From assembly GCA_037893245.1 (NCBI GenBank), contig JBAIAA010000093.1:434001-498000 (forward strand): a DNA stretch of 64,000 bases, written 5' to 3'. The stretch comes from Crossaster papposus. Lineage: Eukaryota; Echinodermata; Asteroidea; Velatida; Solasteridae. The stretch's first letter is position 1. Each line of letters begins with the position of its first letter. This document shows positions 39,401 through 62,189 of this stretch, piece by piece. A program made the position numbers and the translations under genes. Below the pieces are notes generated by a model. That model had not been told where the DNA came from, did no database searches, and saw only the letters and a program-made list of their open reading frames with translations.

Positions 39401-41920
39401 ACATGTGGCTGCGGTCACTTTTTTGCGCATGCCCAACTTCGTCAGACGTTCGGTTTTGGCGCTGAGCCAATTTTTAAATTCGATTTTTAAATTTGCGATA
39501 TTCGCCCCGAAAGTGAGCCTATAGGGTGTAACATGTGGCTGCGGTCACTTTTTTGCGCATGCCCAACTTCGTCAGACGTTTGGTTTTGGCGCTGTGCCAA
39601 TTTTTAAATTCGATTTTTAAATTTGCGATATTCGCCCCGAAAGTGAGCCTATAGGGTGTAACATGTGGCTGCGGTCACTTTTTTGCGCATGCCCAACTTC
39701 GTCAGACGTTCGGTTTTTGCGCTGTGCCAATTTTTAAATTCGATTTTTAAATTTGCGATATTCGCCCCGAAAGTGAGCCTATAGGGTGTAACATTTGGCT
39801 GCGGTCACTTTTTTGCGCATGCCCAACTTCGTCAGACGTTCGGTTTTGGCGCTGTGCCAATTTTTAAATTCGATTTTTAAATTTGCGATATTCGCCCCGA
39901 CAGTGAGCCTATAGGGTGTAACATGTGGCTGCGGTCACTTTTTTGCGCATGCCCAACTTCGTCAGAGGTTCGGTTTTGGCGCTGTGCCAATTTTTTAATT
40001 CGATTTTTTAATTTGCGATATTCGCACCGAAAGTGAGCCTATAGGGTGTAACATGTGGCTGCGGTCACTTTTTTGCGCATGCCCAACTTCGTCAGACGTT
40101 CGGTTTTGGCGCTGTGTCAATTTTTAAATTCGATTTTTAAATTTGCGATATTCGCCCCGAAAGTGAGCCTATAGGGTGTAACATGTGGCTGCGGTCACTT
40201 TTTTGCGCATGCCCAACTGCGTCAGACGTTCGGTTTTTGCGCTGTGCCAATTTTTAAATTCGATTTTTAAATTTGCGATATTCGCCCCGAAAGTGAGCCT
40301 ATAGGGTGTAACATGTGGCTGCGGTCACTTTTTTGCGCATGCCCAACTTCGTCAGACGTTCGGTTTTGGCGCTGAGCCAATTTTTAAATTCGATTTTTAA
40401 ATTTGCGATATTCGCCCCGAAAGTGAGCCTATAGGGTGTAACATGTGGCTGCGGTCACTTTTTTGCGAATGCCCAACTTCGTCAGACGTTTGGTTTTGGC
40501 GCTGTGCCAATTTTTAAATTCGATTTTTAAATTTGCGATATTCGCCCCGAAAGTGAGCCTATAGGGTGTAACATGTGGCTGCGGTCACTTTTTTGCGCAT
40601 GCCCAACTTCGTCAGACGTTCGGTTTTTGCGCTGTGCCAATTTTTAAATTCGATTTTTAAATTTGCGATATTCGCCCCGAAAGTGAGCCTATAGGGTGTA
40701 ACATGTGGCTGCGGTCACTTTTTTGCGCATGCCCAACTTCGTCAGACGTTCGGTTTTGGCGCTGTGCCAATTTTTAAATTCGATTTTTAAATTTGCGATA
40801 TTCGCCCCGACAGTGAGCCTATAGGGTGTAACATGTGGCTGCGGTCACTTTTTTGCGCATGCCCAACTTCGTCAGACGTTCGGTTTTTGCGCTGTGCCAA
40901 TTTTTAAATTCAATTTTTAAATTTGCGATATTCGCCCCGAAAGTGAGCCTATAGGGTGTAACATGTGGCTGCGGTCACTTTTTTGCGCATGCCCAACTGC
41001 GTCAGACGTTCGGTTTTTGCGCTGTGCCAATTTTTAAATTCGATTTTTAAATTTGCGATATTCGCCCCGAAAGTGAGCCTATAGGGTGTAACATGTGGCT
41101 GCGGTCACTTTTTTGCGCATGCCCAACTTCGTCAGACGTTCGGTTTTGGCGCTGAGCCAATTTTTAAATTCGATTTTTAAATTTGCGATATTCGCCCCGA
41201 AAGTGAGCCTATAGGGTGTAACATGTGGCTGCGGTCACTTTTTTGCGCATACCCAACTTCGTCAGACGTTTGGTTTTGGCGCTGTGCCAATTTTTAAATT
41301 CGATTTTTAAATTTGCGATATTCGCCCCGAAAGTGAGCCTATAGGGTGTAACATGTGGCTGCGGTCACTTTTTTGCGCATGCCCAACTTCGTCAGACGTT
41401 CGGTTTTTGCGCTGTGCCAATTTTTAAATTCGATTTTTAAATTTGCGATATTCGCCCCGAAAGTAAGCCTATAGGGTGTAACATGTGGCTGCGGTCACTT
41501 TTTTGCGCATGCCCAACTTCGTCAGACGTTCGGTTTTGGCGCTGTGCCAATTTTTAAATTCGATTTTTAAATTTGCGATATTCGCCCCGAAAGTGAGCCT
41601 ATAGGGTGTAACATGTGGCTGCGGTCACTTTTTTGCGCATGCCCAACTTCGTCAGACGTTCGGTTTTTGCGCTGTGCCAATTTTTAAATTCGATTTTTAA
41701 ATTTGCGATATTCGCCCCGAAAGTGAGCCTATAGGGTGTAACATGTGGCTGCGGTCACTTTTTTGCGCATGCCCAACTTCGTCAGACGTTCGGTTTTTGC
41801 GCTGTGCCAATTTTTAAATTCGATTTTTAAATTTGCGATATTCGCCCCGAAAGTGAGCCTATAGGGTGTAACATGTGGCTGCGGTCACTTTTTTGCGCAT
41901 GCCCAACTTCGTCAGACGTT
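36460..41920 (+). repeat. Higher-order repeat: 2730-bp block of 21 monomers, two tandem copies
   Basis: Rare single-base variants recur exactly 2730 bp apart: aagtgggcct at 36651 and 39381; gctgtgtcaa at 36471/39201 and 37381/40111; acatttggct at 37061 and 39791; a cgcaccg variant near 37294 and 40024; gcgaatgccc near 37735 and 40465; ttcaattttt near 38180 and 40910; gcatacccaac near 38518 and 41248. Block ends are approximate. The acatttggct at 42001 has no partner 2730 bp earlier, so the second copy ends before it. Confidence 0.85.
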
Positions 41921-42186
41921 CGGTTTTTGCGCTGTGCCAATTTTTAAATTCGATTTTTAAATTTGCGATATTCGCCCCGAAAGTGAGCCTATAGGGTGTA
42001 ACATTTGGCTGCGGTCACTTTTTTGCGCATGCCCAACTTCGTCAGACGTTCGGTTTTGGCGCTGTGCCAATTTTTAAATTCGATTTTTAAATTTGCGATA
42101 TTCGCCCCGACAGTGAGCCTATAGGGTGTAACATGTGGCTGCGGTCACTTTTTTGCGCATGCCCAACTTCGTCAGAGGTTCGGTTT

Positions 42187-44626
42187 ATATGTGGATGAAC
42201 CAACACATAATTGCGGCCACACACTTGATTTGCTGATTGCTCGGCCTGATGACTCACTTCTGATTGACTACAAAGTTCATAACAACCTATATTCAGATCA
42301 TTTTATGATCCAATGCACGGTTGACTTTGCTAAGCAAAATAACCCAATGATCACCTCTCAATCACGGAATTACCGTATCCTTGATGAACAGGCATTTGCG
42401 CTGGATCTTCAACATGCTTTCAGTGATTTTCCATTCGACAGCTGTCTTGATGATCAAGTTCTATTTTATGATCATGCAGTTCTCGACATTCTCGACAACC
42501 ATTGCCCAATTACTACAAGGACACACAAATTTCGTAATCAACCGCTCTGGTATACCACTGAAATAAGTGATGCAAGGTGCACCAAACGCAAACTTGAAAG
42601 AAAATGGAACATATCGCGTGACACAGATGATCGGCATCTTTATGTTAAGCAGATTCGTAAATTATCCAAATTAATTCGCAGTGAAAAATCTCGCTACTAT
42701 AAAGAGCAACTTACAACTTGTGATCCTAAATCAGTTTTCAAAGTTGTGAATACGCTTCTCAACAGATCAGTCAAAGCACTCCCTTCTACTGATTCAATGA
42801 AATCTCTTAGCAATCGATTCAGCAAATTCTTCATTGAAAAAATTGTTAAAATTCGTCAGAATATAACTTCAACGCTTGAATCATCAGAGACTGGGCATGC
42901 TGAGCCAGACATTCTTCTGAGTAAGGATCATACCCAGGGTCCGATTATGTCTCATTTTGTTCCCGTTGATTATGATGAGATTTTAAAGTTAGTTTCCTCC
43001 GCTCCTAGTAAATCTTGTGGACTAGATCCGCTGCCTACATGGCTCCTGAAGAAGAACCTGAGTATTTTCATCCCAGCTATGGTTTCCATTATAAATTCAT
43101 CGTTGACGACTGGCAGTTTTCCTTCAGCTCTTAAGGATGCTATTGTTACACCACTTTTGAAAAAGCCTACGCTTGATCACGACACTCTCAAGAACTATAG
43201 ACCTGTGTCTAACACTGCCTTTCTGTCTAAAGTAATCGAAAAAGCTGCTCTTCGTCATGTTTCCAAGCATTTGGAGGATAATAATCTGCATCAGCCATTC
43301 CAGTCAGCATACAAGTCCAATAACAGCACTGAGACGGCCTTGTTGAGAGTCAAGAGTGATATAATGCACGCTCTTGATAATCGGCAGGCTGTTCTCTTGG
43401 TGTTGTTGGATTTGTCTGCTGCCTTTGATACAATTGATCATTCTATACTTTTAAACAGAATGTCAAATATATTTGGTATTACTGGAAGTGTTCGCGACTG
43501 GTTTCATTCGTACCTCACTGGCCGGACTTGCAAAGTAAAAATCGCGAATGAATACTCAGAGCCTCAACCACTTGATTTTGGCTTGCCACAGGGCTCTGTC
43601 ATCGGTCCACAGTCCTTTTCATTCTATACGCATCCACTCGCCGACATCATTAAGCGCCATACCAATGTCAAATTTCATTTCTACGCTGACGACACCCAGG
43701 TGTATATTACCTGTGATCCTAGAGACCCAAATGATGTGAAACATGCTTTGTCGACATTGACCACTTGTATTCTTGAAATCAAAACATGGATGACGCATAA
43801 TATGCTGCAATTAAATGACACTAAAACTGAATTCTTTGTTGCCGTCACTCCAAGATTATCACATACGTTGCAGGACATCTCTCTCAAGATTGGTAATATT
43901 GTCATCAGGCCATCCACCTCCGTCAGAAATCTTGGTGTGGAATTTAACCAAAATATGAACATGTCCACCCATGTGACTTCGATTTGTCGTTCACTAAACT
44001 TCCATATCCGCAATTTATCTCAAATTAGAATGTTTATTGACCAGACTACTTGCCATCACGCCGTTCGTGCTCTTGTTACATCGCGTTTGGATTATGCTAA
44101 CTCTCTCCTTCATGGTATAAATGTTTCTGATATCAAACGTCTTCAGCGTCTCCAAAATCGTGCAGCCAAACTTGTTTTCCAGGCTAAAAAGTATGATCTT
44201 GCGTCGCCATTTCTCAAACAACTCCATTGGTTGCCTGTCCACTTGCGTATTGTGTTTAAGATTTTAACTGTTGTATACAAATGTTTCACCAACCAGGCAC
44301 CAACGTATCTTTCAGACCTCATCATTCCCTATCAATCGAAGAAATCCGGACTTCGCTCAGGCGATGATGATAGACTAGTTACGGTACCTAAAACCAACAC
44401 TCTGTCTGGTGACAAGGGTTTTTACGCTGCTGGTCCTAAGCTATGGAATAACTTGCCTCAGCGCATCCGTCACGCCACATCATTAACAAAGTTCAAGAAA
44501 GATCTTAAGACTTTTCTATTTTAATTGGTTTAGTTTTTGTTCCTTGTATTTTGTTAAGCGCTCTGATACCAGTTTCTTCTGTGTTTGAGCGCTATATAAA
44601 TGCTCACATTATTATTATTATTATTA
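42187..44626 (+). mobile_element. L2-like LINE, 5'-truncated, inserted in the satellite
   Basis: The element interrupts a monomer between 'ttcggttt' and 'ttttggcgctg'. It begins inside the endonuclease domain and ends with 'gcgctatataaatgctcac' plus an (ATT)n tail, the usual 3' end of L2-type non-LTR elements. 5' truncation with an intact 3' end is the mark of target-primed reverse transcription. The coding frame is unbroken, so the insertion is probably young. A related element lies at the right edge of the window (62564 on, opposite strand). Confidence 0.9.
42191..44524 (+). CDS. LINE ORF2 fragment: endonuclease C-terminus and reverse transcriptase
   Basis: 777 codons are open to a TAA stop, with no stop or frameshift in the piece present. 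The first about 45 residues are the end of an apurinic-type endonuclease (HTLDLLIAR, then YSDHFMI with the conserved Ser-Asp-His). The RT domain follows: SKSCGLDPLPTWLLK, NYRPVSNTAFLSKVIEK, QSAYKSNNSTETALLRV, VLLDLSAAFDTIDHSIL, GLPQGSVIGP, then FHFYADDTQVYI with the catalytic YADD. A long C-terminal region ends LWNNLPQRIRHATSLTKFKK. The reading starts at a GTG, not a true start, because the 5' part of the element is missing. On its own this copy lacks most of its endonuclease and all of ORF1, so it should not be able to move by itself. Confidence 0.9.
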   Translation: MDEPTHNCGHTLDLLIARPDDSLLIDYKVHNNLYSDHFMIQCTVDFAKQNNPMITSQSRNYRILDEQAFALDLQHAFSDFPFDSCLDDQVLFYDHAVLDILDNHCPITTRTHKFRNQPLWYTTEISDARCTKRKLERKWNISRDTDDRHLYVKQIRKLSKLIRSEKSRYYKEQLTTCDPKSVFKVVNTLLNRSVKALPSTDSMKSLSNRFSKFFIEKIVKIRQNITSTLESSETGHAEPDILLSKDHTQGPIMSHFVPVDYDEILKLVSSAPSKSCGLDPLPTWLLKKNLSIFIPAMVSIINSSLTTGSFPSALKDAIVTPLLKKPTLDHDTLKNYRPVSNTAFLSKVIEKAALRHVSKHLEDNNLHQPFQSAYKSNNSTETALLRVKSDIMHALDNRQAVLLVLLDLSAAFDTIDHSILLNRMSNIFGITGSVRDWFHSYLTGRTCKVKIANEYSEPQPLDFGLPQGSVIGPQSFSFYTHPLADIIKRHTNVKFHFYADDTQVYITCDPRDPNDVKHALSTLTTCILEIKTWMTHNMLQLNDTKTEFFVAVTPRLSHTLQDISLKIGNIVIRPSTSVRNLGVEFNQNMNMSTHVTSICRSLNFHIRNLSQIRMFIDQTTCHHAVRALVTSRLDYANSLLHGINVSDIKRLQRLQNRAAKLVFQAKKYDLASPFLKQLHWLPVHLRIVFKILTVVYKCFTNQAPTYLSDLIIPYQSKKSGLRSGDDDRLVTVPKTNTLSGDKGFYAAGPKLWNNLPQRIRHATSLTKFKKDLKTFLF

Positions 44627-45143
44627 TTTTGGCGCTGTGCCAATTTTTAAATTCGATTTTTAAATTTGCGATATTCGCCCCGAAAGTGAGCCTATAGGGT
44701 GTAACATGTGGCTGCGGTCACTTTTTTGCGCATGCCCAACTTCGTCAGACGTTCGGTTTTGGCGCTGTGCCAATTTTTAAATTCGATTTTTAAATTTGCG
44801 ATATTCGCCCCGAAAGTGAGCCTATAGGGTGTAACATGTGGCTGCGGTCACTTTTTTGCGCATGCCCAACTTCGTCAGACGTTCGGTTTTGGCGCTGTGC
44901 CAATTTTTAAATTCGATTTTTAAATTTGCGATATTCGCCCCGAAAGTGAGCCTATAGGGTGTAACATGTGGCTGCGGTCATTTTTTTGCGCATGCCCAAC
45001 TTCGTCAGACGTTCGGTTTTGGCGCTGTGCCAATTTTTAACTTCGATTTTTAAATTTGCGATATTCGCCCCGAAAGTGAGCCTATAGGGTGTAACATGTG
45101 GGTGCGGTCACTTTTTTGCGCATGCCCAACTGCGTCAGACGTT
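44627..45143 (+). repeat. 130-bp satellite, short block between two LINEs (about 4 monomers)
   Basis: The monomer sequence resumes right after the (ATT)n tail of the L2-like LINE. It stops at 'caactgcgtcagacgtt', where the A/T tail of the CR1-like LINE begins. The last monomer carries the variants gtgggtgcgg and aactgcgtc, which place it within the higher-order repeat. Confidence 0.97.
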
Positions 45144-45446: not shown

Positions 45447-47211
45447 TCAGATGGCATGTCGGAGCTCTGATTTAAATGTGCTTAATGAGTCCAATGTTCG
45501 CAATTGTTCGGGCAGATTATTCCAAATATTTGCACCACTCACAGCGAAACTTGTGGCGTAGCATTCTTTTTTGGCGAAAGGAACTTTCAGTGCCGTGTGG
45601 GTTGATTGCCTTGTTTCGCGAATTACTGTAAGTGGTTTGAAAATATTTGTCATGTACAAAGGAGTCATTTTGTTGATACTTTTGAAGACAAGAATAGCCT
45701 TTTTTGACTTGACTCTTTTTGAAAAAGGGGTCCAATTAAGACGAGCAAACATATCCTCTGAAGGGGTGAGGAAGGTACATTTAAGGATTATCCGCGCGGC
45801 TCTTTTGAGACATTTGTTTAACATATTATCGTGAGATATGTACCTTCCTCCCCACACAGTACAACAATACTCTAATGTTGGCATAACTAGACTTACAAAT
45901 AGTGTGTGCAAGCTGTGCTGAGGAATACAATCACGGATTCTTCTTAGTATACCTAATTTAGACACCACATTTTTTCTTACGTATTCGACATGTGGGCCCC
46001 AACTTAATGCTTCATCAATAATTACACCCAAACATTTATAAGACTTCACATTTTCAATACGACTACCAGCAATGCATACATTTAAATTAACATTAGATAT
46101 TTTCTGCCTAGTACCAATAAGCATGCATTTGGTTTTGGTGGCATTTAAAGCTAGCTTGTTTCTTCCGCACCAGTTGTGAAAACTAGTAAGAGCTGTATTT
46201 AAGCTACTTTCTATTATATTAATGTTGGAGGAGCTACACGTTAATGTTGAGTCATCTGCATACATAAATAAGTTGCAGTTTGGGGCAATACAAAATGGAA
46301 GGTCACTAGTATAAACAATGAATAAAAGTGGACCTAGTATCGACCCCTGTGGAACACCAGTGTTTACGGACAGGACCTTTGATATGGTGCCGCCAATATT
46401 CACAGACTGACTACGTTCACTTAGGTACGACTTAAACCAATTTATTACAGAAGATGACATGTTCATCCTTTCTAGTTTCTTTAGTAAGATTTCATGATCA
46501 ACACAATCAAATGCTTTACTGAGGTCTATAAACACACTGCCTGTAACTTGTCCATTCTCCATGGCCGCAAAACACTTGTTTGTTAAGTCATGTAGGGTGC
46601 TTTCAGTTGAGTGCAGGGGTCTAAATCCCGACTGGCAACTAGGAATCAGATTGTTTTCATCAAGATATCTATATACCGATGAGTGCACCCATCTTTCTAA
46701 AATCTTAGAGATAATTGGCAGTATAGAAATTGGACGATAGTTACCTGTACTACATTTATCTCCTCCCTTGTGAATTGGTGTTACTAAAGCATGTTTCCAA
46801 TCTTTAGGGTATCGCTCACATCTTATAGACAGGTTAACAATATGAGTTAAAGATTTAATGATATAAGGTGAAGCAATTTTAATCATTTTAACACTAATTC
46901 CATCCGGACCTGTTGCTTTCCCAACCGACATGGATGATATTTGCTTTCGAACAAACTCTTCTGTAATGTTAGGTACTACGCAATCTTCATCAACAGAATC
47001 AAATATAGAGGCGTCAGTATTTTCATCTATTTCAAGTTCACGCAAAGGGTAATTTCCAGCAGTACGCTTGCCGATTGTTGAAAAGTGTTCATTTAATGTA
47101 TCAGCAATGTCGGCGATATTGTCAATATTTTCCCCATTTGGGGAAGTAATCGAATTTGGTACAGTTTTTTGTTTCTTAGGGAGTACCTCCTTCAGAGTTT
47201 TCCACAGCATA
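45447..47211 (-). CDS. CR1-like LINE ORF2, reverse transcriptase part
   Basis: This is the RT and C-terminal part of ORF2. Motifs in order are MLWKTLKEVLPKK (linker after the endonuclease), GKATGPDGISVKMIK, NYRPISILPIISKILER, QSGFRPLHSTESTL, VFIDLSKAFDCVDHEIL, GVPQGSILGPLLF, NLFMYADDSTLT (catalytic YADD), and a C-terminal region with TLEYCCTVWGG and NIWNNLPEQLRTLDSL. The frame stays open upstream as far as 47276, but residues before MLWK come from the inserted element. Its N-terminal partner is the endonuclease frame at 58606-59768. It differs clearly from the two L2-like RTs in this window (SKAFDCVDHE against SAAFDTIDHS). Confidence 0.9.
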
Positions 47212-48437
47212 CACTGTGCGAAAGGGATGGGTTTACGAAAATTTAACGACGCATGAAACGAACGATGGAGGTGCACCCCCCCGTTTCGGCTAACAGTTTA
47301 CCAACAGAGTGCGGGGTTATGAAAATGTAACGCCAAGTTTGCACGCTTTACGACGAGCAGAACACGTTAATTGGAAATTTTTCGTGCACTAGTTTACATA
47401 ATTCTATGCACATGGAATCAAGCCGAAACCGGGTGTATTCATTACATAGGATTCAGTTTGCTATTGGTTAGTCATAATAGTAATGTTGAACGGCCATATT
47501 GCCGCTAAAATAATATGCTCACACAAGATGGCCGATTCTGTTTTAAAATGTGTGCATGCAAAACTGAAAGTATTTTCCTTAAATCGTTTTCACGCAAACA
47601 ATCAATAACATTCTTATTATTTTCCTGGTTCGGTAGTTTACCTCTCTTAAATGTGTATATAAAAATGACATGTTTACGCAATACGACTCGTCAGTGTACT
47701 AATATTTTGTTTTTTCATTTCGTTCCTATCAAGTTTTCTCAAATAATTTGATTTTACAGGTTTTATATAGTTAGTGCGAAACATCAAAGTGAACCAATTA
47801 GTACTGTGTACATCGGCTTTCAGTATTCGCCTGTACCATACTGGCGTTGTATACGTATGAACATGTACAATCTGCAAATATATCTCGTTATAATACAGAA
47901 CAAAATAACCTGCATGTTGATAAACTGACCGGGTCTACTTAAATAAAAGTATCATTACAAACACATGTACATTCAAACAGGATAGTGTCTTGTTAATAGT
48001 GTGAGTTTCCCCTGCCACTCTCTAAACCACCTTAATTTTGTGTTTGTTTTAGAAATACAAAATCTCTTGTTTTGTATAATGTTAATGTTTTTGTTTTCTT
48101 CGTAAAGCCGCCTTCAGTCCGCATACAGTGCTAGAGTTGTGTAAGATGTACGCACAACGCTAAGTTTTAACACTCGTTTATAAATTACACAGTGACTTTA
48201 TAGTACGGGCCATACAGTACTGACACAGGCGTGCAGCATATCCATGTTGTAAAGGACGCAATAATCGCAGCGCTGATACTGTGTGATCTATCACAGCGAG
48301 TTGTGAACTTTTGTCTTTTTCCGTACTGATTCGAATTACCTTACCCCACATGCATTCGACCCAAACTGGCCCTTTACGTTTTAGACGAGTGTGAACCGCT
48401 AAACCACACCGTACGATATCCTATGTTGGTACACTAG

Positions 48438-48461
48438 GTACATGTACATGTACATGTACAG
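48438..48461. repeat. (GTACAT)n palindromic simple repeat
   Basis: Four tandem copies of gtacat form a self-complementary tract inside the CACTA-like element. It is a simple repeat type that recurs in shorter form elsewhere in the window. Confidence 0.75.
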
Positions 48462-49621
48462 TATTTACCAATTATTGATGCCCGGGTACGGTATACGTAC
48501 TCCATAAAGTTGTATGTGTGTGTGTTTGTTTTCTCGTAAATAAGCACCAACCAGCATACATGTACATCGCCTGCTAAACCAATTTCTCGTACTATCGACA
48601 GCTAAAATGGGATGTACAGTAGCTGCGAAGATTCAGCTGGGGACTAACAAAAACACACATAAACTTGCTTTAATAGTAAAACAAGCTTAATAATTACAAA
48701 ATAAACTTGCATTAGACTTGTGCTGGGATGATCAGACTCTTTAGGCAACTTGTATTCTCAACTAAGGGATATTATTTATGTTTCATTATTATACATGGTA
48801 ACCATTCAACCAAGGGTGTTTTTGTGTACGGGGCACCACAAATTGAATAAATTAAATCATATATAAAACAAAATAAAACATTAAGTCGGGGTTCAAACGT
48901 AAGAACAAAACTTTACACCCAAAATATACATTTGTAAATAAAAAGTAAAACAATTAACAATATTATATAATAAATTAGTCATATGTGCTTGACTCAATCA
49001 CACACCAGACTAATTTCTTAATATAAGTTTGAAATTGATTATTATAAGAAAAGCTCGATCCCCAACAACTTAGACAGCAAGATCTTAGACAAATTTGATT
49101 CGTAATAAGGAATATTTCCAAGACAATGTTTAAATAGAGTGACACAAAATTAGAATTGAACGGTATCTGACTAAATTAGTTTGGTAAAAACGTGTGGGGT
49201 TTTTTCTCGGACGAAATTAAATCTGAAAATTGGTAAATTTAAATAGAAAATGTTTTATAATACCCGTGGTAAAAACGTTCAACACAGGATTAAAATAGTA
49301 ATAAAGAAACGAGGGGAATAGTACAGGGCGAGTAAACAAAAAGTGAAACCCCGACACAAAACAAAATATATTTCATATAAAAAACACCAAAGTTATATGC
49401 TCACATGATGTAGTTGAAAATGAACCACACGTGAAATATTGGGAGCTAAATTTTCTTAGTTCATGCATGCAGAGACATCTGCATCAAGGTATCAAAAGTA
49501 CTAGACGAAACAGCTTGAGAATTTCTCTGAACGTACTCTCTATTCGAAAGAAATTTAAAAAAACCCAATTTATTATATACTAATAACACTGAGTAGATTT
49601 AGCCTGCTGAGGTCACCAGGG

Positions 49622-49990
49622 TCAAGTAGAAGGCTTGGCTTTTCTAGCCACAGAGGATCTCCACCTGTTGTGCTACCCGATTTATAAGGTCAAAGGACAG
49701 TCACAGACACTTGCTGCGCGGGATAATTCTAACGCCATAACGGATTTTGCTAAGCCTGTACTAGCTCGCTGTACTGCAACAACGTTTGCACAACATCCCC
49801 TGAAAATAGATATTCCTGAAACCATCAAATAACACTTCCTTGCCATGGTAGCCATAACAGTAGGTTATGATTTAGCCGTTGACGAAGTTGTCCGTCGAGT
49901 TATTCTGACTGAGCTTGACACCACCATGGAATTATTATGACCACAGAGCAAGGAACAGTGCATGACCAAACGGTCGGTGTTGCTGTATAA
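49622..49990 (+). other. Gene-like, GC-richer patch inside the CACTA-like element; unidentified
   Basis: The base composition is more balanced than the surrounding A/T-rich sequence. A 65-codon frame (49635-49832) reads smoothly, with segments such as GQSQTLAARDNSNAITDF, but I recognise no family. It might be a captured host fragment or an exon of a lost transposase. It could equally be chance. Confidence 0.3.
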
Positions 49991-51734
49991 TGGAGTGCTA
50001 TGGATTTTGAACTAGTAACGGGGGTAAGTTAATTTGTTAATCGTCCAAAATAAATACTACTGAGTACTGTAAACAGTTTAAAGAGGTTTTTTTATTACGA
50101 TTTAGGCAACCACGTGATATTTTTGTCGCATAGTAATAGTATAACTAGTTTCAGTGATAACCTGTCCTTCCTCTATGCATTTTGCTGTATTCTTTTGTTT
50201 TACTATGCATGCTCTTACAACTTGGTCATGTTGTTTGTTGGGCTTGTTAGTCAGGACTATTTTGAGTTTGAACTTAGATTCGTAGACCCTACTGTTCTTT
50301 ATTGTTCTACGTCTGCTATCGAATGCAGACAAACTCTCAAACACATGTAGGGTTTTTCCTGTATAAAGCCTAGACACATGCTGGAAACGATAGAGGGAAC
50401 AGTGTACAATTGTTCGTGTTTAACAAAACCCTTGATAACCTCGTATTTATATTGTTCGATATTAAATTGAAGTCCTGGTGCGTGAAATTATGTCTTTTCA
50501 CATTTTTTCAGGGTTCGCTGGCGCCGAAACCGTCTCCTTGTGACCATTCATTTGGTGAGACTACCCGGATGTGCGGAGGGCTACTCTTTCAGGAGGATAG
50601 ACTATTATTTTGAGGAAAACATGGAGGTCAGTAACTCAAATTTCAAGATTAATCGATCATTATTGGAACATTTGGGGGAAAATTCAAGGAAACCTTCAAA
50701 GCGATATTAAATTTTAATATTACTTTTCGTCGTGTGCACATAGCCCTTGGCCTTGGACTATAAAAACAAATATACCTTTGATGTTGCACAATTCAATTGT
50801 TTGTACCCACCATGCCCACTGGCTATTGTTTTGAATTTAATGATAACCTTTATCTCTTCTGACAAAATTAATGAGCTCACTGCATACCCTTTTACTCGCG
50901 CTTACTCACAAAAAGAACAATAAACCTCGACGGTTGAAACACATAAAAGCACAATCAGCAATCCTGGCCATGATTATATTAATTAAGATTTTACCTTTCG
51001 GTTTTTATCCATGTTACAGTTGTTTTCCTAGTTCCGGATCGCTTTCAATAAAAACTCCCCTCTTTTTATGGCTTGTGCCCCGGAACAAAAATCTCGGTGC
51101 ATTTTTAAAAGAAACATGTAAGCTTCTTGATACACAAATATTTTTTTAATAAATTATCCATAAAGGAATTGCGGCTACATTTTTGACTCGCACTTTGACA
51201 TGTTTGGACGGTTTGTAGAAAATCACAAGAGTCGCAAAACCACAATATGTCACTCACAACGTGTGATTTCGATTATGCCTTTTTGTAATCTACAGTTGTA
51301 TTAACTCATGCATCGATTATTTGTTGAGTCAAAATCAGTAGAAAAATCTCTAGTATTAAAACATCTTACAAAGAGTGAACTTGTACTTTTTCATAGTTTC
51401 AGATCGCGCTTAAAATACGTGCATCGACTGCACGCCCACAAGCAATTTTATGTGACATGTTCTATAAGTCAGTTTATCGGCCCGTTCCCGCGCGCACCAC
51501 GGTATGGTCGCACTGCGCTACACAAACGAAAATTTCAAAATCAATGTCTTACCCAAGTCGTCTTTTTAAAACTGTATTGGAAGTATTTAAAATGTTTTTT
51601 TTTTTTTAATATTTAAATACTAAAATCGGCTTGACTCGAGTTGGTTCTAGCTAACCGTGTACAAAGCAGTTTTAACCGATCCGGAATTTGTTAAGTCGAT
51701 TCGCAACTACAGCAAAAGGATGTCGGCACTTTTA

Positions 51735-51765
51735 TATATTTATTTATTTTATTTATTTATTAACC
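51735..51765. repeat. (TTTA)n simple repeat in the CACTA-like element
   Basis: A tract of ttta repeats with one extra T, without other structure. It resembles the A/T tail of the LINE at 45144 in sequence, but no LINE body adjoins it. Confidence 0.7.
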
Positions 51766-52429
51766 ACTTCAAACAGCGAAAGAACCGCCAATTACTGGAA
51801 TGAGATAAACATACACACAATCTCTCCCAGAGAGATTGTATATAACAAATAGGCCTATATGAAATATAAATGTAAATGTCGTTTTGACGTTGTATTTTAA
51901 AAATTAGAAGAGCAATATTGAAACAAAAACAATAGTATCTCCACCACCCAAAGTAAATGATACTAAACCCATTTCACTTGAATGTTGAGGATTGGTCTAG
52001 CCGAAAGCAGTCTGAATAATTGTTGCGATCTCGAACTAGGAAAACGACTGTATCAGAGTACTAGGAACTCAAAATGAATGTTAGAAAAACATTGTTTGCT
52101 GAACTATTTGTTGCTGCTAACCGATCAGTTTTAATCCACCGGAAGTGAAACTCATTACCAAACGGGCTGAGGACAAGCATCGGACGAGTAAGAATCGCTC
52201 TTCACACGTCTCAATCAGTATAGCTCTAGCAATCTAATGAATTACTTTGCAAATAACTGGTGCCTGTCAATGATTACGTGTTTTGTGTCAGGTATACTAT
52301 AGGTCTCTCGCAAGTCTCGTCATTTTCTAAACTTCCTTTTTTACACTTTATCTTTCTGTTCACATTACAAAAGGTGTATTCATTGAAAATCCGCTAACTT
52401 CAACGGAAATTGTGTGCAACATTCACCGA

Positions 52430-52588
52430 TCATTGCGTAATACGCGTACGAGACAACATACTTCTGCGGCTTCTGCACAGGCAGTGAGGCTTTCGACTTT
52501 GAGTTACTTCAGTTGCCAGACTTCGCCGCTTTCGAGGTTTTCCGCGTATAACAAAGAGGAGCAAGATCCACCAAAACAAAAACTATGG
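52430..52588 (+). other. CpG-rich exon-like segment ending in ATG and a donor site
   Basis: From about 52430 the sequence becomes CpG-rich (gcgtaatacgcgtacgaga, ttcgccgctttcgaggtttt, ccgcgtataac). It ends at 'aaaactATG' followed at once by the donor gtaggt. One frame through it is open and reads Ser/Arg-rich (LSTLSYFSCQTSPLSRF). This looks like the promoter and first exon of a gene, possibly captured from the host. No downstream exon was identified. Confidence 0.35.
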
Positions 52589-53149
52589 TAGGTCAACAAG
52601 ATACGTATTAATAATAATAATTATAACAATAATAAAAATAATAATAGCATTGAACGATGAAATGTATTGACTATTATACAATATGATGCATGTGTGTGAA
52701 TATTTTGAATACGTCATTTGAGGGTTTGTTTTTCATTTTATTACTTTTAAAGTTTACCGATCCTGGGGTTCTAGTACTAGTGATGACTTCAATAGTCCAA
52801 TCCTGGGGTCTCGGTGCATATAGATAGGTGGTGAAAACACGTTTAGTTTTTGGAACACAATAGGAATCCCGGTCATATTTCAAAATGCATTGAAAGCGGG
52901 CTTGTATAAAGCAACATAAATATGTTGTTTTCAACTTGAACCCTCGGCTGCCAAATTCTGTAATACTCACACACGTTCTAAAACTATTAATTGCGTGTTT
53001 ATTTTGTCTGCTCTATTATGGAATATCATTACCCCCACAATGAAGGTATAATCTATGCTCACATGCAATTTTCCACGATGAATATAAATACGAATACATT
53101 TCTAGTTTGATTTGTCGTAGTTTTTCAGTATAGTCTAGATTTGTTAAAA

Positions 53150-55270
53150 GGTTTCTGTGAAAGCGTTTGAGACCAGCATTGCTAGCTTTATGCTTTATGT
53201 TTTGTTTGAAAAACTTAACCTTGATGGCATTGCCTGTTAAACCACATGTGGTTCGGTTCACCCTGCGCGACCTGGGCGCCCCGGCCCCAGCTCAATTTAC
53301 AACCAAAAACTTGACTGTGCCTCACTTAACAGGGTGACGGGGTGACCTTTTTATAAAAAGGCATGAACCCTCCAATCAATCAGTAGTGGGATGGGCGGAG
53401 CGAAAACTATAGATGTAGTAAACAAAACTCATATGTACAAAACAATTTAACCATTGAAACCTTTTTGGGTGTTAATTAGATGATTGTTAGAAAGGAAGAG
53501 TTTTGAATGTAATGTTTAGATCACCAGACCTCCAGGCTCCAGGACTGACAAACTTTTACTACAACCAAAGTCCTTGTTTGTTTCTTTTCTTGGAACTATG
53601 TTAATTACATTTATAATGTATATTTCTTCACGATATAAACAACAAGCATGTTCTTGGAGAGTTTGGAACTTTGTTTTGAAGGGCCATCAAAAGCATCAAT
53701 GTTCACATATAGTTCAATATTGGATAGTTACACGTGTATTTTGTTTAATCCAGTACACGTATTGGTGACTGTTACAAACATAATTATAGACAGACTGTTT
53801 TCCCCAAAAGTTGAAAACAAATTCCGAAAACCAAAAAGAAGGCTTTTTTTAGCAGTGTTTCTAAATCGTGGAATTCTGTGGTGGCAGTGGGTGATGGCTT
53901 TTATAGTTCGATCCTGGAATGTCATCAACAGAAGTGCGTGATGGATACACATTATTTTTCGCACAAATCAACATAAATGCATCCGTTTCTTCTGTTCTTT
54001 TTTGAATTTGAAAAGAAGAAGCCATACCCAGGTTAGCCCAGGACAAACAGAGTACTGTTCTATTTACATGCATGCTCTTTGATTTTGTTTTTCTAATATC
54101 GGCCGACCATTTGTTTTTATCTGTATAATATATGTCATTTTGTATGGTGAAATGTTCTTATATTTCTGACTTTGATCTATACAGTTCTATATACAAGATT
54201 GGGTTAAGAGATAAAAAGCAAATTGTTAATTCCTCTTTGTCGGGAAAGGGTATTTATCACAAAATTATCAGGAATATGACTGACCAGTGCGTGATTATTT
54301 TTGATAGTAGATTTGTTTGAAGAGACATTGTGAATTACTTGAAAATCTTACTGTGAAATCTTAAATCAAGCGGTTGAGAACAGCATTGTTTGTTCGTATA
54401 TCAACTTTAACCTTGGTAGCATTGGACTGTCAATTTGTCAAACCATAGGTGAAACCATGGTCAAACCAAGTGTAGTTCTGTTCACAAAACACTTGAGATA
54501 TAGGCCTACCATGTTGAAGGAATGAGACCGGCGAACAAGCTCAATTTGACCGCAAATGATTATTGCGCCTGAACATGGGGGGGGGGGGGGGGGGGGGGCA
54601 TTGCAGTAACGGGGTGACCTTTTTATAAAAAGACATGAACCCTCCAATCAATCAGTAGTGGGATGGGCGGAGCGAAAACTATAGATGTAGTAAACAAAAC
54701 TCATATGTACAAAACAATTTAACCATTGAAACCTTTTTGGGTGTTAATTAGATGATTGTTAGAAAGGAAGAGTTTTGAATGTAATGTTTAGATCACCAGA
54801 CCTCCATGCTCCAGGACTGACAAACTTTTACTACAACCAAAGTTCTTGTTTGTTTCTTTCTTGGAACTATGTTAATTACACTTATAATGTATATTTCTTC
54901 ACGATAACAACAAGCATGTTCTTCGAGAGTTTGGAACTTTGTTTTGAAGGGCCATCAAAAGCATCAATGTTCACAAAGTTCAATATTGGATAGTTACACG
55001 TGTATTTTGTTTAATCCAGTACACGTATTGGTGACTGTTACAAACATAATTATAGACAGACTGTTTTCTCCAAAAGTTGAAAAACAAATTCTGAAAACCA
55101 AAAAGAAGGCATATTTTAGCAGTGTTTCTAAATCGTGGAATTCTGTGCTGACAGTGGGTGATGGCTTTTATAGTTCGATCTTGGAATGTCATCCACAGGA
55201 GTGCGTGCTGGATACACAATATTTGTCGCACAAAACAACATAAATGCATCCGTTTCTTCTGTTCTCTTTT
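53150..55270. repeat. Tandem duplication, unit about 1.27 kb, two copies, inside the CACTA-like element
   Basis: The segment starting 'acggggtgacctttttataa' occurs near 53337 and near 54610. About 650 bp of close similarity follows each start (catgaaccctccaatcaatc, gggatgggcggagcg, aaaactatagatgtagtaaa, cattggtgactgttac). The copies differ by scattered substitutions and single-base indels. More distant similarity before each start suggests the whole 1.27-kb unit was duplicated. Short frames in both copies are shadows of this repeat. Confidence 0.88.
54577..54598 (+). repeat. Poly-G run in the CACTA-like element
   Basis: About 22 consecutive G lie at the junction before the second copy of the 1.27-kb unit. 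The corresponding place in the first copy has no G run. Confidence 0.85.
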
Positions 55271-55304
55271 GAATTAAAAAAGAAAAGAAGCATACGTTAA
55301 CCCG

Positions 55305-57320
55305 CACAACGCATGCTCGTTGAGTTTTCCACTATTTTTTTGTTTTAAAACGTTGCTGCTTCTCGCACATTTCCTGTAAGATTATTTGATGGGTAAAAAA
55401 GCAAAACCTTCGTTTTATTTACTTTTGTAATGGAGAATATTTTTTTAAAGTGTACATCCTAACCCTTGTTTATTATTTGTAAAGTGAAACTTGAACTTTC
55501 ACGGCCTTGTCGTGTCGAACCACACAGAGTTGGATAGCGAAGCCCATGAGACTGGAGGCTCGCTAGCTCAATTGATGACATCTGCTTGAAATTTGGCGGG
55601 AATTCTCTAACGGGCCCACGTTTTTATCAATAAATATAAGCGCTCAGCGTCAGTGAAGCTAAAACTATGGATTCAGTAAAATATTTTATTATTTTTGCAA
55701 GTTGATTTTGGCAGTCCTGTTTTTGTTTAAAATGTGTAGTCTATTTATTATTTTACAAAAGAAGAAAATATTGTTGTTTAACTTCATACAACAAGATGTA
55801 TACTTTATTCACAGGCATGCTCGTTGAGTTGTCCACTGTTATTTTTTATAAAAACGTTGCTGCTTCTCGCACATTTTCTGTAAGATTATTTGATGGGTAA
55901 AAAGCAAATACTTTGTTAAATTTGTCTTTGTAATAGAGGATATTTTTTTAAAGTGTACATTCTAACCCTTGTTTATTATTTGTAAAGTGAAACTTGAACT
56001 TTCACGGCCTTGTCGTGTCGAACCACCCATAGTTGGATAGCAAAGCCCATGAGACTGGAGGCTCGCTAGCTCAATTGATGACATCTGCTTGAAATTTGGC
56101 GGGAATTCTCAAACGGGCCCACGTTTTTATCAATACATTTTTTTATCAAAGAATAGAAGCACTTGGCGTCAGTTAAGTTAAAACTATGGATTTAGTAAAA
56201 TATTTTAAAACTTAGTTTCTTTTTTTAGAATGAAGATTTCCTATTTTTAAAACAAACACTGTATGTCTCCACATTATGAGAGATTCATGCTTTGAAGTGT
56301 ATACATTAATTTTGAGCACGTGGAGTTTAATTAGTTTTGTGTCTTTGTAAACAATGTTTTTGTTTTCTTTATGTTGACTGTCGTTTATTAATTTGTTTAC
56401 AGAAGAAACAAGATTTATACATTATTCACACGCATGCCAGTTGAGTTTTCCCACTATCATTTAAAAAAAAATTGTTGCTGCCTCTCGCACATTTCCTGTA
56501 AGATTATTTGATTGGTAAAAAGCAAAACCTTCGTTTTATTTACTTTTGTAATGGAGGATATTTTTAAAAAGTGTACATCCTAACCCTTGTTTATTATTTG
56601 TAAAGTGAAACTTGAACTTTCACGGCCTTGTCGTGTCGAACCACACAGAGTTGGATAGCAAAGCCCATGAGACTGGAGGCTCTCTAGCTCAATTGATGAC
56701 CCACATCTGCTTGAAATTTGGCGGGAATTCTCTAACGGGCCCACGTTGTTATCAATGAATATAGGCGCTCAGCGTCAGTGAAGCTAAAACTATGGATTCA
56801 GTAAAATATTTTATTATTTTTGCAAGTTGATTTTGGCAGTCCTGTTTTTGTTTAAAATGTGTAGTCTATTTATTATTTTACAAAAGAAGAAAATATTGTT
56901 GTTTAACTTCATACAACAAGATGTATACTTTATTCACAGGCATGCTCGTTGAGTTGTCCACTGTTATTTTTATAAAAACGTTGCAGCTTCTCGCACATTT
57001 TCTGTAAGATTATTTGATGGGTAAAAAGCAAATACTTCGTTTTATTTGTCTTTGTAATGGAGGATATTTTTTAAAAGTGTACATCATATCTTAAGCCTTG
57101 TTTATTATTTGTAAAGTGAAACTTGAACCTTCACGGCCTTGTCGTGTCGAACCACACAGAGTTGGATAGCAAAGCCCATGAGACTGGAGGCTCGCTAGCC
57201 CAATTGATGACATCTGCTTGAAATTTGGCGGGAATTCTCTAACGGGCCCACGTTTTTATCAATGATATAAGCGCTCAGCGTCATTGAAGCTAAAACTATG
57301 AATCCAGTAAAATATGTTAA
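55305..57320. repeat. Tandem repeat of 0.50-0.62-kb units, about four copies, inside the CACTA-like element
   Basis: The block gtaaagtgaaacttgaac followed by 'ttcacggccttgtcgtgtcg', 'gcccatgagactggaggct' and 'ttggcgggaattct' occurs at about 55480, 55982, 56600 and 57111. The spacing is about 502, 618 and 511 bp. 'gcatgctcgttgag' marks the start of most units, and a partial fifth start appears at 57953. Units differ mainly by presence or absence of an about 115-bp section. Confidence 0.88.
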
Positions 57321-57327
57321 AACTTAA

Positions 57328-57706
57328 AGGTAGTATACACCATTTGCAGATATCGAAAATATTTACTACCGAATTATTAAGAAATATCCTACTCATCTGA
57401 AAGTAAATGTTGATTCTGGGCATACAGCAAAATGATTACGCTAGATATCCTGTAATTTTTCCGAAAAATTGAATTTTATAATGAAAAATTCGCGATCGCC
57501 AGACGGCGATCGCGAAAAAACAAAGATAACATAAGAAAACTGCTCGACGCCGGTTGAAAAAACCCGCTGTTTTTTCGTGCTTTTCTCGGCATCCATGATT
57601 CTAAAACTTCGGACAGCTCAGTTAAACGATATTTACTATAAAATACAACCCCCCAAATCTAACCATTCATGATAATTCAAGCAATGACCAATGGTGTATA
57701 CTACCT
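57328..57706. mobile_element. TTAA-flanked MITE, 379 bp, nested in the CACTA-like element
   Basis: The ends AGGTAGTATACACCAT and ATGGTGTATACTACCT are perfect 16-bp inverted repeats, flanked by TTAA at 57324-57327 and 57707-57710. An internal perfect palindrome, cgcgatcgcc-agac-ggcgatcgcg, lies near 57490. The TTAA duplication suggests a piggyBac-type transposase mobilised it. It differs in ends from the TTAA element at 7924. It interrupts the 0.5-kb tandem-repeat region and is later than it. Confidence 0.88.
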
Positions 57707-58136
57707 TTAAAGTTGTTTTTTTCAGAATGTAGATTTCATATTGATACAAAACACCGTATATCTCCACATTATGACAGATTCATGCTTTAAAATGTATACA
57801 TTAGTTATGTAGCACGTGTTGTTTAATTAGTTTTGTGTCTTTTGAACAAACATTTTGTTTTTTCTTTATGTGGACTGTCGGTTATTTTTTTTAAACAGAA
57901 GAAAATATTGTTATTTAAATTCATACCACAAGATTAATACTTTATTCACACGCATGCTCGTTGAGTTGTCCACTATTACTGAAACAAAAATATTGTGTTT
58001 TCTTTAAGTTGACTGTCGGGCCGCACTGTCAGACTTTTGAATAATGATGTAAAACATGTGATTGAGAATAAATATTTTACCTCCTTCAAAAATGTGTTAT
58101 TGAATGTTTTTTGTTAAATGTGTCACAAGAGGGTGG

Positions 58137-58250
58137 GGGGGTGTACAGGTTGTTGGTGGATTTGTGTTGGTGGATTTGTGTTGGGGAGGAGGGTTTGGGG
58201 GTGGTGGGGGGGGGGGGGGGGGGGTGAATACGATAGGGGGGGGGGGATAA
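58137..58250 (+). repeat. G-rich tract with two poly-G runs
   Basis: A G/T-rich stretch (ggtgggggggtgtac, ttggtggatttgtgttgg repeated) leads into a long G run at about 58204-58224 and a shorter one near 58240. It is near the right end of the CACTA-like element. It has G-quadruplex potential, and run lengths are uncertain. Confidence 0.8.
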
Positions 58251-58605
58251 AATAAGTGACTAAGTCAATCAATTGCAGGGGAAGCATTTGAAACCTTGAA
58301 GCTGGTATTTTTGTTCAATAATTATGGCTGAACGTACAACCTATTGACCATAAGCACGCACATGAATTTCCGCGAATTATAGTCTAACATAAAACAAGGA
58401 AAGCTGAAATCTGGTTTCGGGGGTTATGGTTTCGGTATTCGGAAATTGCGGAGGCGAAGGGTGCACTTACTTAGTATGGAAGCTATCTGGAACTAGAAAT
58501 GAAAATGATCGCCGGAGACGGCCGGATATAGCAACGAAATGGGTTGGTTTCGTGTTCAATTAGGCGTCAATTTCCGCATGCGAAAACGTGATTTTTTAAA
58601 CAGTG

Positions 58606-59768
58606 ATAGAAGAGTTGCTTTTATTTTCTTCTATGGCGGATGTGTAGTAATTACTCTTTTTACTGCGGATTTTATTAGTAACATTGTTCCGCAGGTTTTT
58701 GTATGAATCCCAATGAATTTGTAAGCCTGTGTGCTTTGCAATTTTGTGTACACGATCGCGCTGCCGCATAAGTTTAAGAATTTCGCTATCGAGCCACGGT
58801 ACTGAGGCACCCCGAATGCGTTTGGTTTTGACTGGCGCATGGAGGTTAATAATACTCATAAATATGGAGTACCATATAGACCATGCATTATCCACATCAT
58901 AACAACCAAAAACATCTTGCCATGGTGCATTACGGAGATCGTCCGTAAATGCATCACTGTTTATATTTTTTAGACATCGAAAATTTATTGAACGACCTTT
59001 CATTTTTGGTGTTTTCCAACTGTGTAGCCCATAAACAAGATAATGATCACTGATTAGGACTGGTAAAACACCACAGTCCTTTATGAGCTCTGGGTGGGAA
59101 CTAAAAATGAGATCGATGGTAGTTTTAGTAGATTCAGTGACACGTGTTGGGTCATGTATGAGTTGCGCCATTTGGAACAAACTAAAGCAAGAAATAATTG
59201 GATTTGATTGCATACTATCGTATTCCTCTGAAACATCACAATTAAAGTCCCCAGTTGTAATAATTTCTTTACATTCACACGAGGCCTTATTAAGGATATC
59301 ACTCAGTTTTCCCATAAATTCGACAGAGCTTGAAGGAGGCCTATAAATAGAACTGATAAGCACAGGCTGTCTTTGTTTGCACTTAATTTCAACCCATATA
59401 CACTCGACATCATATATTTCGAGATCTTCACGACGAGAGAACATTAGAGTATCTCGAATGTAAATTGCAACACCGCCACCATGTCGGTTCCTGTCTTTTC
59501 TGACAATAGAATAATTTGGTAGAGTTATTTCGTCATCAGAGATTGAGGCGTCGCAAAAAGTTTCGTTTAGACAGATGATGTCGAATGGATTTTTAGACAT
59601 TACAATCTTAAAATGGTCAAATTTGTTTATGAGGCTTCTTACATTAAGATGGGCGAATGAGAAACCCTCGGAACTTTGATTGCAGATAATACCATCTGTT
59701 ATGTCTATTTTAGAACCTTGCCTTGTGGGTTGAGCAGCTCCCTGACCATTTTCAGATGTTGGTTCCAC
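58606..59768 (-). CDS. CR1-like LINE ORF2, endonuclease part
   Basis: This is the N-terminal part of ORF2, an APE-type endonuclease that nicks the target DNA. Motifs include FAHLNVRSLINKFD, DIICLNETF (catalytic Glu), RHGGGVAIYIRD, LISSIYRPPSS, IITTGDFNCDV (GDFN), TTIDLIFSSHP and LISDHYLVY (Ser-Asp-His). The frame then runs through the linker YKNLRNNVTNKIRSKK and is cut by the inserted element after about SNSS. The RT continues at 47211. Its start overlaps the end of ORF1 by 64 bp in another frame. Confidence 0.9.
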
Positions 59769-60573
59769 TCCTGGCTTCGATAATGTGTCGGGGCGGGTGC
59801 TCTGGTCTGGGATACTGGCTGCCGTCGTTGATTGAGGTTGATTTGGTGCCGTTTCGGATGGGGATGCGGGTAATACTGGTTGGCCATTAGAAAACCCGTC
59901 GGAACATCATGGGTCGCTGTAGTCCGCTTCGTCAGGACATCAGAGTACAAACTCTGACCGAAAGGGGTTTTCTGATGTGGAATGCGACTATCAAAGGTCT
60001 TTGGTGGTCCTTTGATGTGTTGGATAATGTTCGTGGCAAGTAGGCGCACTCCTGCTGAGTCGAGGTGCACACCGTCCGACACAAGGTGGTTTGAGTTTAT
60101 GTTACCGTTGTCAATGAAGCCCCAGTTGTTTCGCTTTGCTATGGACTTGAGCAGATTATTAGAATCATCTACTCTCTTGTACTGTGGCACCGTTTGGTTT
60201 TTACGGTGTATGATCGAAGATATTGTCACTGATCTTGGTTGTAGTGACTCGCCGAGGGAGGTGATCTGAGCGGCAATAGTCTCCGGGTTGTCGGATGTGT
60301 TGTTGGTCCCAACATGGAGAATTACCCGAGATACGTCGTGCTTGGTCGACAGCTGTATGGCGTGGGGAGCAAGATCTTGGATTTTTGCTCCACGCATGGT
60401 GTGGCACATCACTTTCTTTTGCCTGCTCAATCTCCTGGGCTGAAGCCGTTTTATCATCGAGTCACCGATTAGAAGCACATCTGCACAGTGGTGTTCCGAT
60501 GGTGTGGATGCTGATTGTTTTACTTTAGGTGCCGGTTTGTCCTTTGCAGTGGTCAGCTTCTTGTGCTTTTTCC
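59705..60573 (-). CDS. CR1-like LINE ORF1 with SGNH/GDSL-esterase domain, 5'-truncated
   Basis: The catalytic blocks of an SGNH hydrolase are visible: block I LLIGDSMIK (Ser), block III VILHVGTNN (Gly...Asn) and block V SDGVHLDSAG (Asp-x-x-His). Block II is probably near MRGAKIQDL. The domain occupies roughly the first 165 residues after LLIGDS. A Pro/Gln/His-rich tail follows (YYPHPHPKRHQ, APAPTHYRSQ). Upstream the frame is open to the insertion border and is Lys-rich (KKHKKL), so the true start is missing. Esterase ORF1 proteins occur in CR1-type LINEs; their role in transposition (perhaps membrane or lipid association) is unsettled. Confidence 0.87.
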
Positions 60574-62189
60574 GTTCGGTTTTGGCGCTGTGCCAATTTT
60601 AAAATTCGATTTTTAAATTTGCGATATTCGCCCCGAAAGTGAGCTTATAGGGTGTAACATGTGGCTGCGGTCACTTTTTTGCGCATGCCCAACTTCGTCA
60701 GACGTTCGGTTTTGGCGCTGTGCCAATTTTTAAATTCGATTTTTAAATTTGCGATATTCGCCCCGAAAGTGAGCCTATAGGGTGTAACATTTGGCTGCGG
60801 TCACTTTTTTGCGCATGCCCAACTTCGTCAGACGTTCGGTTTTGGCGCTGTGCCAATTTTTAAATTCGATTTTTAAATTTGCGATATTCGCCCCGACAGT
60901 GAGCCTATAGGGTGTAACATGTGGCTGCGGTCACTTTTTTGCGCATGCCCAACTTCGTCAGAGGTTCGGTTTTGGCGCTGTGCCAATTTTTAAATTCGAT
61001 TTTTTAATTTGCGATATTCGCCCCGAAAGTGAGCCTATAGGGTGTAACATGTGGCTGCGGTCACTTTTTTGCGCATGCCCAACTTCGTCAGACGTTCGGT
61101 TTTGGCGCTGTGTCAATTTTTAAATTCGATTTTTAAATTTGCGATATTCGCCCCGAAAGTGAGCCTATAGGGTGTAACATGTGGCTGCGGTCACTTTTTT
61201 GCGCATGCCCAACTTCGTCAGAGGTTCGGTTTTGGCGCTGTGCCAATTTTTAAATTCGATTTTTTAATTTGCGATATTCGCCCCGAAAGTGAGCCTATAG
61301 GGTGTAACATGTGGCTGCGGTCACTTTTTTGCGCATGCCCAACTGCGTCAGACGTTCGGTTTTTGCGCTGTGCCAATTTTTAAATTCGATTTTTAAATTT
61401 GCGATATTCGCCCCGAAAGTGAGCCTATAGGGTGTAACATGTGGCTGCGGTCACTTTTTTGCGCATGCCCAACTTCGTCAGACGTTCGGTTTTGGCGCTG
61501 AGCCAATTTTTAAATTCGATTTTTAAATTTGCGATATTCGCCCCGAAAGTGAGCCTATAGGGTGTAACATGTGGCTGCGGTCACTTTTTTGCGCATGCCC
61601 AACTTCGTCAGACGTTCGGTTTTGGCGCTGTGCCAATTTTTAAATTCGATTTTTAAATTTGCGATATTCGCCCCGAAAGTGAGCCTATAGGGTGTAACAT
61701 GTGGCTGCGGTCACTTTTTTGCGCATGCCCAACTTCGTCAGACGTTCGGTTTTTGCGCTGTGCCAATTTTTAAATTCGATTTTTAAATTTGCGATATTCG
61801 CCCCGAAAGTGAGCCTATAGGGTGTAACATGTGGCTGCGGTCACTTTTTTGCGCATGCCCAACTTCGTCAGACGTTCGGTTTTGGCGCTGTGCCAATTTT
61901 TAAATTCGATTTTTAAATTTGCGATATTCGCCCCGAAAGTGAGCCTATAGGGTGTAACATGTGGCTGCGGTCACTTTTTTGCGCATGCCCAACTTCGTCA
62001 GACGTTCGGTTTTGGCGCTGTGCCAATTTTTAAATTCGATTTTTAAATTTGCGATATTCGCCCCGAAAGTGAGCCTATAGGGTGTAACATGTGGCTGCGG
62101 TCACTTTTTTGCGCATGCCCAACTTCGTCAGACGTTCGGTTTTTGCGCTGTGCCAATTTTTAAATTCGATTTTTAAATTTGCGATATTC
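60574..62189 (+). repeat. 130-bp satellite, right block, about 12 monomers
   Basis: The monomer resumes at 'cgttcggttttggcgctgtg' directly after the CR1-like LINE. The variant order (ttttaaaattcg, gtgagcttat, acatttggct, agaggttcgg, gctgtgtcaa, aactgcgtc, gctgagcc) follows that seen near 35.95-36.75 kb, with two extra monomers. It ends inside a monomer at 'gcgatattc' (62189), where unrelated sequence begins. Confidence 0.97.

Follow-up and report, generated by a model that had tools for sequence, protein, structure and literature searches.

A family of large non-autonomous DNA transposons with CACTA-like ends in the genome of Crossaster papposus

The stretch of the Crossaster papposus genome analysed here (64,000 nucleotides; assembly GCA_037893245.1, contig JBAIAA010000093.1, positions 434,001 to 498,000; hereafter the window) carries on its forward strand, at positions 47212–58605, an insert of 11,394 bp which begins with CACTGT and ends with ACAGTG. 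The reading that best accounts for this insert, to which we give a probability of about 0.78, is that it represents, at full length, a family of large cut-and-paste transposons which are non-autonomous, have CACTA-like ends and are mobilised in trans. The family is real, young, multi-copy and clearly structured, and is of a kind which is generally known already. The original prediction had placed a non-autonomous DNA transposon with CACTA-like ends inside a LINE, and this is supported by the borders of the element, its target-site duplication and the further copies found in the 1.02 Gb genome to whose assembly the window belongs.

The element starts with CACTGTGCGAAAGGG and ends with GATTTTTTAAACAGTG, and both the reading of the flanks and the empty site place a duplicated ATA on either side of it (47209–47211 on the left, 58606–58608 on the right); the predicted interval, 47209–58608, is right to the base, being the element plus both duplications. 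The host LINE lies on the minus strand and its frame is split by the insert into a downstream part with a reverse transcriptase (45447–47208; PF00078, E 5.9e-37) and an upstream part with an endonuclease (58611–59906; PF03372, E 1.3e-13). Once the insert and one ATA are removed, a LINE frame of 1,020 amino acids is restored, and the joined empty site of 140 nt was found at 100% identity over its full length in all 40 of the LINE copies that were scored, out of 742 candidates in the genome. The predicted restoration of the LINE across the site thus holds, the border of the element is exact, and the interrupted LINE family is itself young.

The LINE and its insert are flanked by blocks of a 130-bp satellite (22729–42186, 44627–45143 and 60573–62189), the biggest of which has approximately 150 units, and the insert in turn contains a small element at 57324–57710, the inverted ends of which are 21 bp long and which has TTAA at each end. 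The nesting therefore runs from satellite to LINE to CACTA-like element to small TTAA element. Two other copies of the family (L018 and L024) also sit within the 130-bp satellite, and a 799-aa frame on the plus strand at 42125–44524, flanked by satellite blocks, resembles by eye a second, different LINE reverse transcriptase. The nested TTAA element is missing at most of the right-end loci compared; related pieces are present in L008 and, inverted, in C55.

The interior was predicted to be made largely of internal tandem repeats. Repeats are indeed present, but the long-period direct repeats amount to 3,683 of the 11,394 bp (32%), and so do not make up most of the element. They comprise, on the plus strand, one 0.69-kb pair with 95% identity between its copies (53334–54027 and 54606–55295) and an array of several units of approximately 0.5 kb at spacings of 503–618 (55309–57326), while Tandem Repeats Finder, run over 46000–60000, reported four small arrays. 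No match was obtained when the element was scanned against Rfam. The exact terminal inverted repeat is limited to the 6 bp CACTGT, and beyond this the two ends are not clearly inverted copies of each other; when they were aligned, the global score did not exceed chance, being equalled by 265 of 2,000 shuffles, and the local score did so only weakly, being equalled by 28 of 2,000. The latter alignment corresponds to a weak motif common to both ends, some 25–57 bp from the termini, which may be a binding site.

Further copies, for which the original prediction had proposed a search with the terminal sequences, proved to be numerous. Searches with the terminal 301 bases on the left and 356 on the right returned 152 and 154 candidates, respectively, and all of the 40 + 40 that were scored matched. 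When up to three mismatches were allowed, the terminal patterns matched 77 left and 75 right ends, whereas the reversed-pattern controls gave 0 and 0, and the matches are therefore not due to chance; 53 of the left ends (over 26 nt) and 56 of the right ends (over 25 nt) are exact, the remainder having one to three mismatches. Pairing of ends in the correct orientation and less than 45 kb apart produced 45 rows, from which four rows of a related family (family B, discussed below) and two left ends sharing one right end were subtracted, leaving 39 copies of the family of the window element (family A), 26 of which span 10.2–14.0 kb. At least three further pairs lie outside this tally (C251, 11.5 kb; C798, 11.3 kb; C130, 12.0 kb), and, as the genome searches score the best candidates only, all copy numbers are lower bounds.

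Both flanks were read in 13 copies, which agree in their borders, as the original prediction implied. An exact 3-bp duplication, which it had also put forward as a check, was found in ten of these and none in the other three (C1070, C950 and C787); the ten duplications (ata, aaa, aac, aat, tac, ata, tat, ata, cgc and ttc) comprise eight different sequences. Across 30 left-end loci the first 900 bp have a median pairwise divergence of 3.16% (maximum 10.7), and across 30 right-end loci the last 850 bp have a median of 1.57% (maximum 15.1); four of the 30 left-end loci (L006, L007, L020 and L024) leave the family sequence after 0.9–1.3 kb. The window copy differs from five other loci (L002, L003, L004, L005 and L008) by 0–0.22% in its first 900 bp and by 0–0.24% in its last 850 bp, which shows recent spread to separate sites. 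By contig, the left-end divergence from the window copy is 0 for C79, C1070 and C519, and 0.22% for C301 and C123; four of these copies have a 3-bp duplication of their own, unlike that of the window copy, and C1070 has none.

Under the trans-mobilisation reading, a transposase made elsewhere, probably one of the CMC (CACTA/EnSpm-Mirage-Chapaev) group, would be supplied in trans, would bind both termini and would excise the element, which would then be joined to a target with a 3-bp stagger. The non-coding interior of approximately 10–11 kb (most copies being of 10–14 kb) would be passive cargo, altered when parts of it are duplicated or other elements insert into it. A recently spread family of such large elements, mostly 10–14 kb, in which filled and empty sites are defined to the base within a single assembly, is well suited to the question of how a transposase moves cargo of such length in trans. 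Tens of non-coding 11-kb copies, nested with LINEs and satellites, could also escape annotation that relies on similarity to transposases.

The original prediction also called for a search for an autonomous partner with a CMC/EnSpm transposase; no partner was identified among the places tested, and the interpretation it gave is to that extent supported in part. Transposases of that type do exist in the genome: there are 27 matches to Transposase_21 (61 candidates scored), two of them, at C343 and C251, in frames of 109 and 111 aa, seven matches to DUF1258, and 52 matches to one 930-aa CACTA-type protein, for which 49 of the 343 candidates were scored, with several sets of near-identical score. 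However, none of those tested lies near a related end; of 57 CACTA-type places compared with 239 end or end-like places, the closest was 60,221 bp away, a figure obtained from hand-collapsed lists, with 49 of the 343 candidates scored and the diverged ends represented by part of their 119 matches, and thus leaving room for a missed partner. Two terminal patterns which exclude most of families A and B, with 49 and 41 matches versus 10 and 15 in reversed controls, likewise gave no match near any tested transposase place. Two Transposase_21 loci (C616 and C103) have 5.5 kb in common at 99.6% and were rejected as partner, the homology between them not ending in CACTG. Two places (C22:609172(-)/625382(+) and C343:2148735(-)/2164857(+)) each have a CACTGTGCGAAAH end which points away from a diverged left end approximately 16 kb distant, and possibly represent one larger repeat. 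As no EnSpm-type transposase was found near the ends of the family at the places tested, the family's assignment to CMC is by termini and duplication length only.

Some sequence of the element is shared with family B, the left end of which reads ...GATGAGTTTTCG. The left terminal 48 bp (47212–47259) are 92–96% identical in B and are followed by a 0.7-kb stretch which B lacks; the right terminal region (58211–58605) is approximately 81% identical, both being given for the plus strand. Interior pieces are common to A and B at 74–87%, and the shared sequence thus goes beyond the termini. Four left flanks of family B (C466, C263 and two ends in C773) are homologous, which suggests that family B spread as part of a different repeat. 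The compact B copies in C466 (5.3 kb) and C263 (6.3 kb) were considered as the partner and set aside, as their frames do not exceed 123 and 117 aa, respectively. An alpha-kinase domain (PF02816, E 1.4e-20) is encoded approximately 5.9 kb inward of one family-B left end, in an ORF of 396 aa (L074:1949–3136, minus strand) which adjoins a frame that by eye is reverse-transcriptase-like.

The distance between the located EnSpm-type transposases and ends of this kind would also be expected if the element belonged to another branch of CMC, either Chapaev proper or a lineage with CAC...GTG ends that has yet to be named, and were moved by the transposase of that branch. We regard this as unlikely, though it is the alternative that fares best. 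Chapaev elements have CAC...GTG ends and duplications of 3–4 bp (PMC4079192), and the present family resembles them in both its termini and the length of its duplication; Chapaev3, however, has TWA duplications according to the same source, a sequence seen in none of the ten duplications here, and membership of Chapaev3 is disfavoured. A broader version of the idea, that family A, family B and the more diverged CACTGT ends are all moved by an undescribed CMC branch distinct from the Transposase_21-type proteins, we hold to be similarly doubtful; it would agree with the finding that such proteins are abundant in the genome and that none was seen beside CACTGT ends at the 57 CACTA-type places tested. 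Only a new CMC branch as its transposase, if true, would lift the family beyond the known kind.

We consider it improbable that the element is instead autonomous, with a transposase divided among short exons which escape Pfam, even though some CACTA-type genes in this genome do appear to be split, as in the short Transposase_21 frames at C343 and C251. Against it stands the coding content of the element: its 61 ORFs of at least 52 aa include no transposase remnant recognised by Pfam, in agreement with the absence originally claimed, and the longest stop-to-stop frame wholly within it is 112 aa. The scan returned five single weak matches (best E 0.0062), which look like chance. Among the largest copies, that in C55 (23.6 kb) was opened whole and that in C531 (27 kb) over its middle 17 kb; in alignment with the window copy their main pieces reach 93–99% and 95%, respectively, with shorter pieces at 81–87%, and what was opened consists of the same non-coding interior, split by unrelated nested insertions. 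Neither was accepted as an autonomous partner. C55 contains a nested 11.6-kb element with inverted ends of approximately 700 bp and an 8-bp duplication, while the middle of C531 holds another insertion, MULE/SWIM-like by eye. The inverted ends of the element nested in C55 read ACGGAAGCCCGTTAGGGCC... and its duplication AGGATAGT; it carries an integrase-core ORF (L061:673–1599, plus strand; PF24764, E 5.3e-24) and, on the opposite strand, one of 754 aa which matches HECT weakly (L061:4836–7097, minus strand; E 9.2e-6).

A minority of the copies most likely spread in another way. Six of the 30 left ends (L021, L023, L025, L026, L027 and L030) occupy a single position in a 219-bp satellite, and in five of these the flanks agree in register at 96.7–100% over 1.5 kb, monomer-shifted matches reaching no more than 96%; for the flank of L023 the agreement is 98.7–98.9% and extends over 616 bp, with a gap of 64 bp next to the element, after which this flank passes out of the satellite. 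The in-register agreement indicates one insertion that was later multiplied along with its satellite. Two left ends outside this group also have a common flank, and eight of the 24 distinct left-end sites adjoin tandem arrays with a period of at least 43. That the family as a whole was multiplied by segmental or satellite duplication rather than by transposition, as the six left ends in the 219-bp satellite and the two with a common flank might suggest, is nevertheless contradicted for most copies and very improbable, given that there are 24 distinct left flanks among 30 and 30 distinct right flanks among 30, that in ten of the 13 copies with both flanks read the element is bordered by a 3-bp duplication of its own and that the empty site is exact.

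No description of this family was found in the literature searched, although Repbase lay outside that search and the result is thus not proof that the family is unpublished. Transib elements make a 5-bp duplication, unlike the present family with its 3 bp in ten of 13 copies and none in three. The same counts set it apart from hAT elements, the duplications of which are usually of 8 bp, or of 5–7 bp in variants (PMC12730594). Animal elements of the TRC group, which encode Transposase_21, have CCC ends and 2-bp duplications (PMC1636069), as does the Spongebob element (PMC4298943). SmTRC1 and its relatives recall the situation here in that this genome, too, contains Transposase_21 proteins, but the family has CAC termini and a 3-bp duplication rather than CCC and 2 bp. 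Plant CACTA elements typically contain repeated subterminal motifs to which the transposase binds; in the family described here such repeats are not evident, and there is only the one weak motif shared between the ends. It differs further from CACTA/EnSpm in having no linked transposase, an inverted repeat which is exact over 6 bp only, and CACTG in place of CACTA. In size it is not without parallel, since very large CACTA elements occur in plants, one of 20.5 kb being reported from soybean (PMC2613891). CAC..GTG ends together with 3-bp duplications have been taken as consistent with EnSpm (PMC12730594), and it is in these two features, the CACTGT...ACAGTG termini and a 3-bp duplication without fixed sequence, that the family most resembles CACTA/EnSpm.
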